From assembly GCF_007904085.1 (NCBI RefSeq), contig NZ_CP042326.1, positions 2,356,001 to 2,420,000 on the forward strand: 64,000 nt of DNA, given 5' to 3'. The notes below the pieces were generated by a model. It saw only the letters and a program-made list of their open reading frames with translations. It did no database searches and was not told the origin of the DNA. Origin of the DNA: Euhalothece natronophila Z-M001 (GTDB lineage Bacteria > Cyanobacteriota > Cyanobacteriia > Cyanobacteriales > Rubidibacteraceae). Below, in pieces: positions 45,062 to 59,732 of this stretch; position 1 is the first letter of the stretch; every line of letters begins with the position of its first letter. The position numbers were made by a program, and so were the translations under genes.

Positions 45062-46417
45062 ATGACAACAACAACTGCGCTTCAACAACAATTACCGCCT
45101 GGCCCAAAAGAACCTGTATGGTTTCAACTTTTACAATGGATCAGCGATCCGATCAAAGTCATGGAAACGTCCCAAACCACTTATGGTGATCTCTTTACGT
45201 TAAACTTCTTTAAAAACAAACCTTTTGTTTTTATTTCTAATCCTGATACTATCAAAGAAATTTTAAGCCAAGATCAAAAACAGTTTCTGAGTGGAAAAGG
45301 GAATGAGATACTAGTACCCTTTGTAGGTGAGCATTCAATTTTATTAACAGATGAAACAACTCATACTCGACAACGAAAATTAATGTTTCCCCCTTTTCAT
45401 GGAGAAAAAATTAACTATTATGGAGAAGTGATAGCAAAGATTACAGAAAAAGTCGCTCAAACTTGGACAAAAGAGAAACCTTTTTCTATCCGCCCCTCGA
45501 TTCAAGAAATTACCTTAGAAGTCATTATGCAAACAATTTTTGGAATTTCAGAGGGAGCGCGTCATCAACAATTAAAAACTCGCTTGATGAAGTCTCTAGA
45601 ATTAGCAACGGGATCAGTTTTACGCTCAAGTTTACTCTTTTTTCCGCTATTACAACAAGATTTTCCAGGTAGCCCTTGGCGCAATTTCGTAAAACGCCAG
45701 CAGTCCATTAATGACTTATTACAAGCCGAACTTGAAGAACGACGCAATAGTGAAGAAGAAGGTGGAAATGATATTCTCAGCTTACTCTTGTCAGCGCGAG
45801 ACGAAGAGGGGAACCCGATGGGTGACGAGGAATTACGTAATCAGTTAATGACCCTTTTATTCGCGGGACATGAAACCACAGCAACCGCCTTAACTTGGGC
45901 TTTTTATTGGATTCATAAATTGCCAGAAGTGCGAGAAAAACTATTAGCAGAATTAGAGAGTGTTTCTGATACGAGTAATATTAAAGAACTCAATAACTTA
46001 TCCTATTTAGACGCTGTATGCAAGGAAGTTTTACGGATTTATCCAGTTGCTATTGTTACTTTTCCTCGTATTACTAAAGATACCCTTGTTATTGGCAATT
46101 ATGAATATCCTCCTGACACAGTGCTAGCACCTTGTATTTATCTGTTGCATCACCGTGAGGAAATTTATCCCAACTCAAAACAATTTAAACCTGAACGTTT
46201 TCTAGAACGAGAGTTTAGCCCCTATGAATTTATGCCCTTTGGTGGGGGAAGTCGTCGCTGCATTGGGGATGTTTTTGCACAAATGGAAATGAAGATTGTT
46301 ATTGCTACTATTTTGAAAAACTATCAGTTAACCTTAGCAGAAAAGAAACCTGTTAAGCCCGTAAGAAGAGGAGTCACAGTTGCCCCTGCAGGTGGCGTAA
46401 AAATGATTAGTCATTAG
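45062..46417 (+). CDS. Cytochrome P450 (copy 1), CYP110-like
   Basis: This is a soluble-type P450 of 451 residues. The oxygen-binding helix is LLFAGHETTATALTWAFYW, the ExxR is in VCKEVLRIYP and the heme Cys in FMPFGGGSRRCIGDVFA. The N-terminus QQQLPPGPKEP is proline-rich without a membrane anchor. The CYP110 group of filamentous and some other cyanobacteria hydroxylates fatty acids or alkanes; this subfamily is suggested only. A second, clearly similar P450 lies at 51784, with the IS cluster between. The C-terminal Met-Ile-Ser-His-stop is written by a 7-bp repeat. No ferredoxin or reductase partner is adjacent. Confidence 0.94.
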   Translation: MTTTTALQQQLPPGPKEPVWFQLLQWISDPIKVMETSQTTYGDLFTLNFFKNKPFVFISNPDTIKEILSQDQKQFLSGKGNEILVPFVGEHSILLTDETTHTRQRKLMFPPFHGEKINYYGEVIAKITEKVAQTWTKEKPFSIRPSIQEITLEVIMQTIFGISEGARHQQLKTRLMKSLELATGSVLRSSLLFFPLLQQDFPGSPWRNFVKRQQSINDLLQAELEERRNSEEEGGNDILSLLLSARDEEGNPMGDEELRNQLMTLLFAGHETTATALTWAFYWIHKLPEVREKLLAELESVSDTSNIKELNNLSYLDAVCKEVLRIYPVAIVTFPRITKDTLVIGNYEYPPDTVLAPCIYLLHHREEIYPNSKQFKPERFLEREFSPYEFMPFGGGSRRCIGDVFAQMEMKIVIATILKNYQLTLAEKKPVKPVRRGVTVAPAGGVKMISH

Positions 46418-46433: not shown

Positions 46434-46436
46434 ATA

Positions 46437-46913
46437 TGAAATATCTAAATGTTTGCTACAGATAAAGCATTGAGAATAAAGTCCCATCCAGTGATCTGAG
46501 TAATCACTTGAGAACTTAATTTTGATAAGATTTTGGAAAGTCGCTTTCTTAAATCATCTAAATCGGGAAAGAATTCCCATTTCAAAGGTTTCTTAATTTC
46601 TTGCCATAATCGTTCAATGGGATTAACTTCTGGGGAATAAGGTGGTTGGAAAATTAAAATGACATTATCAGGAAGTTGTAACTCTAACCAAGTATGGCAA
46701 CGACTGTTATCAACTTGTATTAAGTGTAAATCGTCAGGATATTCTTGAGCAAACCAGCTTAAATACTGCTCAAAGCAAAGACCATCAAGATGAGAAAATT
46801 CTCTGAAAAAATTCTCTCCCGTTCTCGGTTCCACTAAACCGTACAACCATAAATAATCAAACTTCCACTGTTTTTTTCCTGTCGGTTGAATTCCTTTACC
46901 TGTAATTTTTGTA
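46437..46913 (-). mobile_element. Truncated IS630 copy (3' half), interrupted by an IS1634-like element
   Basis: This fragment is the reverse complement of the last ~475 bp of the complete IS630 at 47109-48246 and looks identical by eye. It has an intact terminal TGAAAT with a flanking TA and encodes the last ~155 residues of the transposase, including the catalytic Asp and Glu. Its break at 46913 coincides exactly with the start of the IS1634-like terminal repeat. Any frame reading across the junction is an artefact. Confidence 0.9.
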
Positions 46914-47168
46914 CCCACATTCCGCACCCCAACTGTCACATCGTCCGTTCCCCCTAGCTGAAATGAGAAGAGTTGCTCTTCGTCTGTCTATGGATCACTT
47001 TTCAAAAGTGACAATTCACCAAGGACGCTCGTAGCACCCAGAACCAATAAGCATGGGTTTCTGAAGAAGGAAAAGAAAGGTAAACTGATCAAAAAATCCT
47101 TTCTTATATGAAATGGAACTGTGTATGCTACAAATAGAGGGAGAGATTGTTAGTAATCGAGATTAGCT

Positions 47169-47657
47169 ATGGCAGGTGTCATTAAAATTGAGATTGCCGA
47201 GTCAGCTCAAGAGCTTAAAAAACAGCTCAACTTCTCCCAAAACAGTGAAGTCAAAGAACGAATCCAAGTCTTGTATTGGCTGAAAACGAACCAAGTCAGA
47301 AGTACCGGCGCGCTCGCCTCCCTAATCGGAAAACACCGAACGACAGTATCAAGATGGCTCAGTAAATATCGCAAAGGAGGTCTCAAAGGTCTTTTAGAAG
47401 TTAAGAAAAGTCCTGGGCGAGTCCCTAAAATCACGCCATCAGTAGAAAAAAAATTAATCCAAGAACTAGAAGATCCAGAAGGATTTTCTAGTTATAAGGA
47501 AATTCAAACATGGCTTCAGTTAATTCAAGATATTGATATTAGTTATAGTGCTGTTCATAAACGAGTCCGCTATGGTTTAGAAGGAAAACTGAAAGTGCCA
47601 CGTCCAGTTCATAGCAAACAGGAATTGGGAGCACCGGAAGCTTTTAAAAAAAACTAA
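47169..47657 (+). CDS. IS630 transposase, first frame (DNA-binding part)
   Basis: This 162-residue frame encodes the N-terminal helix-turn-helix region of an IS630 transposase (GALASLIGKHRTTVSRWLSK and a second HTH near KRVRYGLEGK). It ends in a run of eight A (47646-47653) just after Ala-Phe-Lys-Lys-Asn. The catalytic part continues in the -1 frame, so full-length transposase would need slippage in the A run. Confidence 0.85.
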   Translation: MAGVIKIEIAESAQELKKQLNFSQNSEVKERIQVLYWLKTNQVRSTGALASLIGKHRTTVSRWLSKYRKGGLKGLLEVKKSPGRVPKITPSVEKKLIQELEDPEGFSSYKEIQTWLQLIQDIDISYSAVHKRVRYGLEGKLKVPRPVHSKQELGAPEAFKKN

Positions 47658-48238
47658 GTGAAATTGTTACAACCCAACTAGAAGCTAATTCAGAAAAGGT
47701 TAAACGATATCAAAACATTAGATATTGGTGCCAAGATGAATCTCGAATCGGGTTAATCACACTTCACGATACAAAAATTACAGGTAAAGGAATTCAACCG
47801 ACAGGAAAAAAACAGTGGAAGTTTGATTATTTATGGTTGTACGGTTTAGTGGAACCGAGAACGGGAGAGAATTTTTTCAGAGAATTTTCTCATCTTGATG
47901 GTCTTTGCTTTGAGCAGTATTTAAGCTGGTTTGCTCAAGAATATCCTGACGATTTACACTTAATACAAGTTGATAACAGTCGTTGCCATACTTGGTTAGA
48001 GTTACAACTTCCTGATAATGTCATTTTAATTTTCCAACCACCTTATTCCCCAGAAGTTAATCCCATTGAACGATTATGGCAAGAAATTAAGAAACCTTTG
48101 AAATGGGAATTCTTTCCCGATTTAGATGATTTAAGAAAGCGACTTTCCAAAATCTTATCAAAATTAAGTTCTCAAGTGATTACTCAGATCACTGGATGGG
48201 ACTTTATTCTCAATGCTTTATCTGTAGCAAACATTTAG
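47654..48238 (+). CDS. IS630 transposase, second frame (catalytic part)
   Basis: The -1 frame continues without a stop from the A run to 48238 (~195 residues). It holds the DDE residues: Asp in YWCQDESRIGL, Asp in LIQVDNSRCHTW and Glu in PEVNPIERLWQEIKK. An internal ATG at 47837 is available but would lack the first Asp, so frameshifting is the likely route. The end ALSVANI matches the truncated copy at 46445. Confidence 0.85.
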   Translation, partial: LSEIVTTQLEANSEKVKRYQNIRYWCQDESRIGLITLHDTKITGKGIQPTGKKQWKFDYLWLYGLVEPRTGENFFREFSHLDGLCFEQYLSWFAQEYPDDLHLIQVDNSRCHTWLELQLPDNVILIFQPPYSPEVNPIERLWQEIKKPLKWEFFPDLDDLRKRLSKILSKLSSQVITQITGWDFILNALSVANI

Positions 48239-48264
48239 ATATTTCATATTAATTAGAGTTCATC

Positions 48265-49494
48265 ATGGCTAGTGTTTTCCATAATTGATCATCAATCGAA
48301 GTAACAAATTTAGATCATTTAGGAATAGTTGCTGGCTTAATTGACGAAATCGGACTGGTAGAACAAATCAATGAATTAGTAGTAGAACAACCTGGGGAAA
48401 AAGTAAGCCCAGGTCATGTAGTTAAAGCTATGATTCTCAATGGCTTAGGACTATTTTCATCTCCCTTATACCTATTTCCCAAATTCTTTGAAGGCAAACC
48501 AACGGAACATTTAATCGGAGAAGGAATTGAAGCCGAACATTTAAATGATGATCGATTAGGACGAGTTTTAGACAAATTATACTTAACGGGATTAGAGGAC
48601 ATATTTCTCAGCATCACCTTAAAAGCCATCCAACAATTTTCGATTGGTGTAGAAAGTATTCATCTTGATTCAAGCTCTTTAAGTGTCGAAGGAGAATACG
48701 AAAATACTTTAACAGAAGAAGCCAATGTAGAAATTAATTCAGAACAAGGAGAAAAGCTAAATCCTCTTCAACAGATTCAAATTACCTATGGTTATTCTCG
48801 GGATAAACGTCCCGACTTGAAACAGTTCATGGTTGATTTAATTTGTAGTGGCGATGGGGATATACCAGTTTTTTTAAGAACAGGAAGTGGAAATGAATCT
48901 GACCAGAAAGTATTTCCTGAACTTTTTAAGCAATTCCGAAATCAAGTTAATTTCGATTCATTGATGGTAGCAGACAGTGCTTTATACACCGCAGAAAATT
49001 TGAAACAAATGCAAGATTGGAAATGGCTGACGCGAGTTCCCTTTCGTCTCAAACCAGCTCAAACTCTTGCTAGACAAATTAAATCCTCAGAAATGATTCC
49101 CAGTGTTCTTCCAGGGTATTATTATTCAATTTACCAAAGAACGTATGGGGGATTTAGATTTTTAAAAGACCCCATGTTTTTAGCAGACAGCATTTTTATT
49201 AAATCTCCTGAACGAATTCAGGCGATGGTCTTAATTCTGGGCTTGTGTCTGCTCATTTATAATTTGGGGCAAAGAGAACTGCGTTCGGCTTTAGTGAGAC
49301 GAGGAGAAATGGTTAAAAATCAATTAGGGAAAGAAACCAAGTTTCCTACTTTGCGTTGGATTTTTCAACAATTTCAAGCCGTTCACTTATTAAAATGTAA
49401 CGGAGAAAAAGAAATTTCTAATCTCACCGAAGAGAGATTAAATTTACTACAATTGTTTCCCAAACCTTGCCAACAATATTATTTATTAGTGTAA
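48265..49494 (+). pseudogene. IS1634-type transposase, defective
   Basis: The frame starts MASVFHN, meets a TGA at 48286, and continues SSIEVTNLDHLGIVAGLIDE, the DUF4277 N-terminus usual for this family; an ATG at 48430 could reinitiate. The first Asp (HLDSSSLSV) and second Asp (MVADSALYT) of the DDE triad are present. Near 49148 the sequence jumps from IYQRTYGG to FRFLKDPMFLADS; in family members the catalytic Glu precedes FRFLKDP in a VERG-like motif, and a block of roughly 130 residues between the two segments is missing here. The product would not be a working transposase. Confidence 0.85.
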
Positions 49495-49705
49495 GGAAAG
49501 TTTCCCCAAAGGAGTGAAAATCAAAGCTGAAGTCAGTTAAGAGCTGCTGTAATTTCAGGCTTATAAATTCTCAATTACTCTTGGTTAATGAGAATAAGAA
49601 GAATTCACCCTGATTCTCCCCCTAAGTTTGATGCTAGAATCAATCAATTCCCCTTGATACGGTCGCTAAACGGACAATGTGACAGTTGAGGGTGCGGAAT
49701 GTGGG

Positions 49706-50050
49706 TTTCAAAGTGCCCTTGACCACTATCTCAGTGTCGGTTTTCAAGAAGGACGAGAAGGAAGCAATATTCCTTATGATGAAGCCTTCTACTTGAATGA
49801 GCATTCTGATGTTCTAGACGCGGTAGAAAATGATGATTTCGGCTCAGGATTTGAACATTTTGTCTTGCATGGTGCAGAAGAAAATCGAGCTTCCACACAA
49901 GAGTTACTAGAGTTTGATGCCGAAAGCTACTTGGGAGCGAATTCAGATGTAGAACAAGCCGTGGAACAAGATGAGATGTCTAGCGCGCTAGAACACTGGA
50001 TTAACTTTGGTGCCGAGGAAGGACGCGATCTGGGAACTGTCCTTTCTTAA
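49706..50050 (+). pseudogene. Severed 3' end of a CAP-domain repeat protein gene
   Basis: From TTTCAAAGTGCCC onward the sequence matches the 3' part of the gene at 50271 (51405-51617) almost base for base. It then continues with an intact C-terminal repeat (FDAESYLGANSDVEQAVEQD...) and stop that the downstream copy has lost. Its 5' part was replaced by the IS1634-like right end. Any start codon lies in the IS terminal repeat, so it is a remnant. Confidence 0.85.
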
Positions 50051-50270: not shown

Positions 50271-51617
50271 ATGAGCCAACAGACAACAAACTCCCTAGAA
50301 TTATCACAAGAAGAACAGTACTTCCTTGAATTAGTTAATCGCGCTCGCCTCAACCCGCTTGAGGAAGCTAGCTTATATGAAATTGATCTCAATGAAGACT
50401 TAGCTTCGGGCACTATCTCTGCTGAAGCTAAACCACCTCTAGCATATAATCCTAAACTCTTAGAAGCCGCTAGGGATCACAGCCAATGGATGTTGGATAC
50501 AGATACCTTTAGTCATACTGGCATTGATGATACCCAACCTTGGGATCGAACAGAAAATGTTGGCTATACTTCTAGCCCTATTGGTGAAAATCTAGCTTGG
50601 AGAGGAACCACTAGCGAGATTGAAGAGATCACTAATTTTGTTGAGGCTTCACATGAAGGTCTATTTCTCAGTTCAGGTCATCGCGTTAATCTGATGTCTG
50701 ATGAGTTTCAAGAAGTTGGGATCGGAGTTTTAACTGGTGAGTTCACAACTGATGAGAGAGAATATCCGAACTCAGTGATGACCACACAGAAATTTGGTGG
50801 AGGCTTAGATAATGATCATGTATTTATCACTGGTGTAGTTTACGAAGATGCCAATGAAACTGGCTTTTATGATCTAGGGGAAGGATTAGCTGATATTGAA
50901 ATCGAGGCGACAAGTCTTGATAATGACTTTCAAGCTACCACCACTAGTATGAGTGCTGGTGGATATCAATTAGAAGTCCCATCAGGAGAGTATGAAGTTA
51001 CATTTTCTGGTACTCCATTACAAGCACCAATTACTGAGGTAGTGACTGTAGAAGATAGTAATGTCAAAGTAGATGCTGTGATCGAGCATGATGAGCCAGA
51101 GCCAAATTTTCCTCCTGTATTTGATGAGAATGAAGATGAGGAAGACCCCATTGATGAGCCAGATTTACCTGACATTCCTCTTGCAGTCAACTCAGAAACT
51201 ATCTTTAACGAATCACTCTACCTAGAGCAAAATCCAGATGTTGCCAATGCAGTAGAAGATGGTTTATTTGACTCAGCATTAGACCATTTTCAGGAATTTG
51301 GATTGGGAGAAAATCGAATCCCAACAGATGTTTTACAAAACTTTGACCCGACTAGCTATCTGAGTGAAAACTCAGATGTCGCTGATGCAGTAGAAGATGA
51401 GATTTTTCAAAGTGCCCTTGACCACTATCTCAGTGTCGGTTTTCAAGAAGGACGAGAAGGAAGCAATATTCCTTATGATGAAGCCTTCTACTTGAATGAG
51501 CATTCTGATGTTCTGAACGCGGTAGAAAGTGGTGATTTCGGCTCAGGATTTGAACATTTTGCCTTATTTGGTTTAGAAGAAAATCGAGCTTCTACACAAG
51601 AGTTACTAGAGTTTTGA
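50271..51617 (+). CDS. CAP/SCP-domain protein with C-terminal ~48-residue repeats (tail lost by frameshift)
   Basis: This is a 448-residue protein with three parts. Residues ~15-170 are a CAP/SCP (PR-1-like) domain with LELVNRARLNPLEEASLYE, MLDTDTFSHTGIDD and SGHRVNLMSDEFQEVGIGVL. Residues ~190-265 are a SdrD B-like beta domain (GVVYEDANETGFYDLGEGL). From ~300 on are acidic repeats of the form YL-NPDVA-AV-G-F-SALDHY-GF-EGR. No N-terminal signal peptide is seen; the C-terminal repeats suggest type I-like export. The end LLEF-stop results from one extra T at 51613-51616 compared with the 49706 copy, so the natural C-terminus is lost. Confidence 0.85.
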   Translation: MSQQTTNSLELSQEEQYFLELVNRARLNPLEEASLYEIDLNEDLASGTISAEAKPPLAYNPKLLEAARDHSQWMLDTDTFSHTGIDDTQPWDRTENVGYTSSPIGENLAWRGTTSEIEEITNFVEASHEGLFLSSGHRVNLMSDEFQEVGIGVLTGEFTTDEREYPNSVMTTQKFGGGLDNDHVFITGVVYEDANETGFYDLGEGLADIEIEATSLDNDFQATTTSMSAGGYQLEVPSGEYEVTFSGTPLQAPITEVVTVEDSNVKVDAVIEHDEPEPNFPPVFDENEDEEDPIDEPDLPDIPLAVNSETIFNESLYLEQNPDVANAVEDGLFDSALDHFQEFGLGENRIPTDVLQNFDPTSYLSENSDVADAVEDEIFQSALDHYLSVGFQEGREGSNIPYDEAFYLNEHSDVLNAVESGDFGSGFEHFALFGLEENRASTQELLEF

Positions 51618-51657: not shown

Positions 51658-51783
51658 AAGGACAAAGGACAGAAGAATAAACTATAGTTGAACTCAAGCT
51701 AGGAGAATTCGATAAAGTTTTATTTGACATTTAGAGAGAAAATTGCTAGAAATCTCCTAATTGTAGTAAATTTTAGATTTCTA

Positions 51784-53142
51784 ATGACCCAAAATATTTC
51801 TCTTCAACAACAATTCCCCCCTGGTCCAAATACCTCTTCTTTGAGAAATGTCATTAAATGGGCAAGTGATCCAATTACGTTTTTAGAGCAGTCAACACAG
51901 AAATATGGTGATCTTTTTAGCTTAAAACTTTATAAAGGGAAAACTTATGTTTTTACCTCCAATCCTGAGATTATACAAGAAATTTTTTCTAAGGATATCA
52001 ATAATTTTGATGCTGGAAGAGGAAACCAAGCGTTATTACCCTTGGTGGGACAATATTCAACCTTATTAATTGATGGCAAACTTCATTCTCGGCAGCGAAA
52101 GTTGATATTTCCTCCATTTCATGGTGAAAAAATTCGCAATTATGGGGAGAAAATGGCAGAAATTACAGAAAATGTCGCAAAACAATGGAAAAGCGGAGAA
52201 CTCTTTGATCTTCGTTCTTCCATGCAGGAGATTACTCTAGAAATAATTATGCAAACGGTCTTTGGAATTTCTGAGTTTGAGCGTAAAGAACAATTAAAAA
52301 GCCGTTTAGTGAACACGCTGGAGTTAGTTTTATCTTCAGTTTTACGCTCTATGTTATTATTTTTCCCGATATTGCACAAAGACTTTCCAGGTAGTCCTTG
52401 GCGCACATTTGTAAGAAATAAAAAAATGATCAATGAGTTATTACAAGAAGAAATTGAAGAAAGACGCAATCGTGTAGAAAAAGATGATAATACAATTATT
52501 AGTTTATTAATGCTTGCCAGAGATGAAGATGGCAACCCTATGAGTGATGAAGAATTGCGGGATCAGTTAATGACCCTTTTACTGGCTGGACATGAAACTA
52601 CAGCAACGGCTTTAACTTGGGCATTTTATTGGATACATTATTTTCCAGAAATACGAAGTAAATTACTAGCAGAATTAGAAGAAATTTCTGATCCGAGTGA
52701 TATCCAAGCTCTGAATAAGTTACCTTATTTAGATGCAGTTTGTAATGAAACTTTAAGGATTTATCCTGTTACTATTATTACCTCTCCTCGCATTACGAAA
52801 ACCACGACTAAAATTGGAGATTATGAATATCCACCAGAAACATTTTTAGCTCCTTGCATGTACCTTTTGCATCATCGGGAAGACCTTTATCCTAATTCTC
52901 AAGAATTTCAACCTGAACGCTTCCTTAATAGGACATTTAAACAGTATGAATTTATGCCGTTTGGTGGAGGAAATCGCCGTTGTATTGGTGATGCATTTGC
53001 CCCCATGGAGCTAAAAATTATTTTAGCAACAGTGTTGAAAAACTATCAGTTAGCTTTAGTGGATAAGCAAGTAACTAAGCCTGTACGAAGAGGAATTACT
53101 CTTGCTCCTAATAGAAGTATTAAAATGAAAGTTGAGGGTTAG
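51784..53142 (+). CDS. Cytochrome P450 (copy 2), CYP110-like
   Basis: This is a P450 of 452 residues, strongly similar to the one at 45062 along its whole length. It keeps LLLAGHETTATALTWAFYW, ExxR in VCNETLRIYP and the heme Cys in FMPFGGGNRRCIGDAFA. ATG at 51784 gives MTQNISLQQQFPPGPN, matching copy 1; the 20 extra upstream residues encoded in frame are not conserved. The pair probably arose by duplication with the CAP gene between them. Substrate is unknown; fatty acyl or alkane hydroxylation would fit the subfamily. Confidence 0.94.
   Translation: MTQNISLQQQFPPGPNTSSLRNVIKWASDPITFLEQSTQKYGDLFSLKLYKGKTYVFTSNPEIIQEIFSKDINNFDAGRGNQALLPLVGQYSTLLIDGKLHSRQRKLIFPPFHGEKIRNYGEKMAEITENVAKQWKSGELFDLRSSMQEITLEIIMQTVFGISEFERKEQLKSRLVNTLELVLSSVLRSMLLFFPILHKDFPGSPWRTFVRNKKMINELLQEEIEERRNRVEKDDNTIISLLMLARDEDGNPMSDEELRDQLMTLLLAGHETTATALTWAFYWIHYFPEIRSKLLAELEEISDPSDIQALNKLPYLDAVCNETLRIYPVTIITSPRITKTTTKIGDYEYPPETFLAPCMYLLHHREDLYPNSQEFQPERFLNRTFKQYEFMPFGGGNRRCIGDAFAPMELKIILATVLKNYQLALVDKQVTKPVRRGITLAPNRSIKMKVEG

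Positions 53143-59658: not shown

Positions 59659-59732
<74 letters not shown>

Follow-up and report, generated by a model that had tools for sequence, protein, structure and literature searches.

Insertion sequences of the IS1634 family encode transposases with a conserved DDE motif, the Glu of which lies in region C1, and the spacers between regions N3 and C1 of these enzymes are long (De Palmenaer et al. 2008, PMC2266710). Table 1 of the same paper describes the terminal inverted repeats as C-----YT; the authors also note that just five of 32 have the Arg of YREK, and report long target duplications of variable length for two members. The element analysed here lies within a stretch of 64,000 nucleotides of the Euhalothece natronophila Z-M001 genome (hereafter the window; contig NZ_CP042326.1, positions 2,356,001 to 2,420,000), and is almost certainly a recently inactivated copy of a resident insertion sequence of this family. 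Internally deleted, non-autonomous derivatives of insertion sequences, a kind that is on the way to MITE-like elements, form the second group with which it can be compared.

The transposase frame and its full-length relatives

The first-pass annotation recommended that the genome, which comprises 3.52 Mb in 5 contigs, be searched for full-length copies, and three were found: L022 (C1:2952500-2956000; L002 is the same copy), L023 and L024, which encode proteins of 546, 543 and 543 aa, respectively. L023 and L024 are 99.9% identical in DNA sequence over 2068 bp. The genome also holds two 3' remnants (L025 and L026) in addition to the window copy. Searched with the full-length protein, 67 of 148 genomes gave matches, a count that takes in the genome of the window itself, as did 156 of 72,556 plasmid records, where every match lies below 60% identity. 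The best plasmid relatives are cyanobacterial, with identities of up to 53.5%.

The transposase frame of the window copy (48265-49494, forward strand) opens with an ATG at 48265 and is closed at codon 8 by an in-frame TGA (48286-48288), where both L022 and the copy from genome G003 have a Leu codon; no further stop is encountered until 49494. Within this frame IYQRTYGG is joined directly to FRFLKDP, so that both the abrupt jump and the TGA described in the first-pass annotation were confirmed. Compared with L022, the window copy lacks 411 bp, or 137 codons, in frame. Its longest ATG-type piece (48430-49494) matches the IS1634 family transposase model NF033559 with 245.8 bits (cut-off 100), the match being split over two stretches, whereas a full-length copy matches the same model in a single continuous stretch covering residues 12-538. 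Membership of the window transposase in the IS1634 family is thereby established, and the Pfam domain DUF4277 is found in both the window piece and the full-length copy.

Ends, leader and flanks of the element

The coordinates given at first pass, 48265-49494, are those of the transposase frame and not of the element, and an IS630-type interruption had been missed: the IS1634 element extends from 46914 to 49705, and the window copy is more damaged than was first seen. It begins with CCCACATTCCGCACCC at 46914, the complement of which ends at 49705. The left terminal inverted repeat (CCCACATTCCGCACCCC..., 46914-46950, forward strand) shares its first 40 bases with the left end of L022 and is complementary to the right repeat (49669-49705, reverse strand). 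Both repeats are intact, as the first-pass annotation had held for the ends of a defective, internally deleted element, and CCCACATT occurs at both ends, in keeping with the form C-----YT.

The left part of the 5' leader (46951-47106, forward strand) aligns with the leader of L022 in two blocks (122/148 and 37/48 identical positions). A sigma-70 consensus scan of the L022 leader detected no promoter-like site, and an Rfam scan of the window returned nothing at the IS1634 element and one tRNA elsewhere (59659-59732). The leader is invaded by a complete element of about 1.14 kb (47107-48248, forward strand), which we take to be of IS630 type. It lies about 16 bases upstream of the transposase ATG and cuts the coding region off from the left end and the leader. 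Its borders are uncertain by 1-2 bases, and the insertion apparently occurred at a TA. The genome holds nine full-length copies of this element, eight of them outside the window and 99.9-100% identical, which points to a recent burst of multiplication. Of its two reading frames, the first (47169-47657) stops just past eight consecutive A; the second ends at 48238 and lies one base back, an arrangement that suggests -1 frameshifting or slippage.

The flanks of the IS1634 element do not correspond to each other. On the left, another IS630-type copy retains only its 3' part (46434-46913, reverse strand), cut exactly at the IS1634 left end; these 480 bp show 100% identity to the element at about 47107-48248. 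On the right lies a 3' fragment of a host gene (49706-50050, forward strand), cut by the right end and resembling the C-terminal repeats of the adjacent gene at 50271-51617 (86% identity to residues 375-448). The orphan 5' part of the cut IS630-type copy was sought and is absent, the nine places matched being the eight other full copies and that of the window. No target duplication of the 5-6 bp AT-rich kind surrounds the window copy. L022 is bordered on both sides by the 6-bp duplication TTAAAA; L023 and L024 have precise ends and no duplication. A search for long variable duplications of up to 599 bp at the window copy and at L022-L024 likewise returned nothing beyond the 6 bp at L022. Since the ends are precise and unaccompanied by a duplication, we suggest that the mismatched flanks would have arisen either through a deletion made by an end of the insertion sequence or through recombination between IS1634 copies with loss of the intervening DNA. 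This rearrangement is probably recent, because the cut IS630-type copy is identical to the others.

The rearranged region is itself flanked by two related genes (45062-46417 and 51724-53142), presumably cytochrome P450-like, between which lie two related repeat-bearing genes, one of them present only as a 3' fragment. The whole region is perhaps a tandem duplication broken by insertion sequences. Elsewhere, lone ends resembling the IS1634 terminal repeats were noticed in L089 (position 1501), L100 (1500) and L101 (1500); tblastn detected no transposase within these 3-kb loci, and the lone ends are suggested to be remnants or small derivatives.

Given that both terminal repeats are intact, mobilisation of the window copy in trans by one of the three full-length copies appears possible. 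The idea advanced at first pass, that the element could still move, is upheld as regards full copies and intact ends, but movement itself is no more than a possibility: there is a single deleted copy, no target duplication, and an IS630-type element in the leader. That the copy has in fact moved in trans after losing its own activity, and is thus a mobile non-autonomous derivative, we consider unlikely. Such a history would agree with the intact repeats and with the position of the left end inside an IS630-type fragment 100% identical to a recently multiplied element, which makes the junction a young one. Nevertheless, the deleted form occurs only once in the genome, rather than in several copies, and its flanks lack a duplication such as the TTAAAA around L022, although the last point is weak evidence either way, since L023 and L024 have no duplication either.

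The deletion junction and the lost catalytic residue

The breakpoints of the deletion lie at 1671-1676 (GGGGGA) and 2083-2087 (GGGGA) of L022, and both correspond to one GGGGGA at 49147-49152 of the window, in identical codon phase. The junction is thus located at 49148-49152 (forward strand), where comparison with L022 reveals the GGGGA common to both breakpoints; a common stretch in the same codon phase makes slippage or microhomology-mediated deletion a likely cause. The direct parent is absent from the genome, where no full-length copy exceeds 88.5% identity on the left side of the junction, so that the deletion is deduced from relatives. Overall, DNA identity to the three full-length copies is 86.3-88.5% to the left of the junction and 94.1-95.8% to its right. 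The lower value on the left prompted us to consider a chimera of two copies, which was rejected: L022 and L024 display the same contrast with each other (for example 127/150 for a block on the left against 146/150 for a block on the right), which is therefore not peculiar to the window copy. Collapse of two copies into one during assembly would be conceivable for an element present repeatedly in the genome, but is very unlikely here, as the window copy carries its own private substitutions on either side of the junction, and the junction is a 5-bp common stretch rather than a long repeat.

A DNA-degenerate form of GGFRFLKD, which detects deletions with the same junction only, matched in 2 of 148 genomes, once in that of the window and twice in G031, where the catalytic Glu is retained in each of the two frames. 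The Glu-less junction was thus not found again in the window's genome or in the 147 related genomes by this pattern, and viral contigs gave no match to a longer form of it. Among the papers listed by literature searches, judged by titles and the opening of abstracts, no report of this deletion was found.

The deleted block contains most of the D2-E spacer together with the catalytic Glu of the Y(2)Q(3)E(6)K motif; the loss of the Glu had been proposed in the first-pass annotation. The spacer comprises 193 residues in L022, and 58 residues remain in the window copy by the alignment that follows. This alignment has 32 rows selected from the genome matches, representing 30 distinct loci (L072 = L035, L073 = L036) and including some near-identical copies from one genome. 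In this sample the Glu is present in all 26 distinct loci, other than the window, whose frames read through the site; L036 and L050, the frames of which stop earlier, and L071, which runs into masked sequence, were left out of the count. All three full-length copies of the genome have the Glu. In the window copy both Asp residues are kept and, counted back from the conserved Lys, a Tyr occupies the position expected for the Glu. Because this residue was deleted, the window copy is best regarded as a defective relic of the IS1634 family, not as an active member. The spacer length, the DDE motif and the rarity of the Arg reported in PMC2266710 fit the full-length copies described here.

If the window frame is translated, we infer that its product would be unable to cut DNA. 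Tn5 produces an N-terminally truncated inhibitor protein, and by analogy a shortened protein started at the internal ATG at 48430 might pair with the full-length transposase and damp transposition, a role that we regard as exceedingly improbable.

Homologues that are naturally short do exist. The G070 protein of 461 aa has a spacer of 98 residues and the G058 protein of 474 aa one of 135; both retain the Glu, which suggests that shortening of the long D2-E segment is compatible with retention of this residue. The G070 loci L067, L068 and L069 (frames of 461, 461 and 427 aa) represent a compact IS1634 variant, the elements being 99.6-99.8% identical over about 1.79 kb, and residues 257-378 of the full-length query are left uncovered by all 11 matches listed for G070, out of 13. 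The counter-evidence named in the first-pass annotation, equally short homologues in which another acidic residue occupies the site, was not found. The Pfam model DDE_Tnp_1 (PF01609; cut-off 23) is reached by the window piece, with 30.7 bits, but not by the full-length copy; this says only that the two Asp regions come nearer to that model once the insert is gone. A functional lineage of short transposases using another acidic residue or an altered active site might draw on this match and on the shorter homologues (461 aa in two of the three fetched G070 copies, 427 aa in the third, and 474 aa in G058), but its probability is close to nil, since those homologues keep the Glu, the window copy has a Tyr in its place and a TGA at codon 8, and no homologue with this Glu-less junction was found in the genomes or viral contigs scanned with the junction pattern.

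Course of decay and comparison with known systems

In order to estimate the age of the inactivation, we counted codons that differ from two reference copies where those two agree. Within the set formed with L022 and L024, the window copy has 34 synonymous and 17 non-synonymous private codons, L024 has 34 and 18, and L022 has 20 and 8. Against G003 and L022 the window copy shows 20 synonymous and 17 non-synonymous changes, and against G003 and L024 it shows 24 and 12. The counts of the first set resemble those of an intact copy and hence give no sign of long neutral decay. The window copy was probably inactivated recently: most of its divergence seems to have accumulated while the gene still worked, with the lesions arriving late. 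Some neutral decay is possible, as the 20-to-17 count leaves room for it and the counts are small.

On the reading of the element as a recently inactivated resident copy, which we hold to be nearly certain, 137 codons have been lost in frame between two 5-bp GGGGA stretches, probably by slippage or microhomology-mediated deletion. The catalytic Glu went with them, as did most of the D2-E segment; the frame is closed at codon 8 by a nonsense codon, and the ends could be used in trans by the transposase of a full-length copy. The window copy is a case of ordinary decay of an insertion sequence, and a clear example of it, combining a microhomology deletion, a nonsense codon and a nested element. 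In annotation the frame at 48265-49494 is best entered as an IS1634-family pseudogene; it is of little wider importance.

With the IS1634 family the window element shares the transposase family (NF033559) and ends that fit C-----YT. The full-length copies further resemble the family in their long D2-E spacer, their Y(2)Q(3)E(6)K motif and an element length of about 2.06 kb, and L022 does so in its 6-bp AT-rich target duplication. The window copy departs from it in the absence of the Glu and of most of the D2-E spacer, in the stop at codon 8 and in the IS630-type interruption. Like non-autonomous derivatives of insertion sequences, it combines an internal deletion with two retained terminal repeats and coexists with full-length copies in the same genome; unlike them, it is a single copy, of about 1.65 kb without the IS630-type insert, and bears no sign of multiplication.
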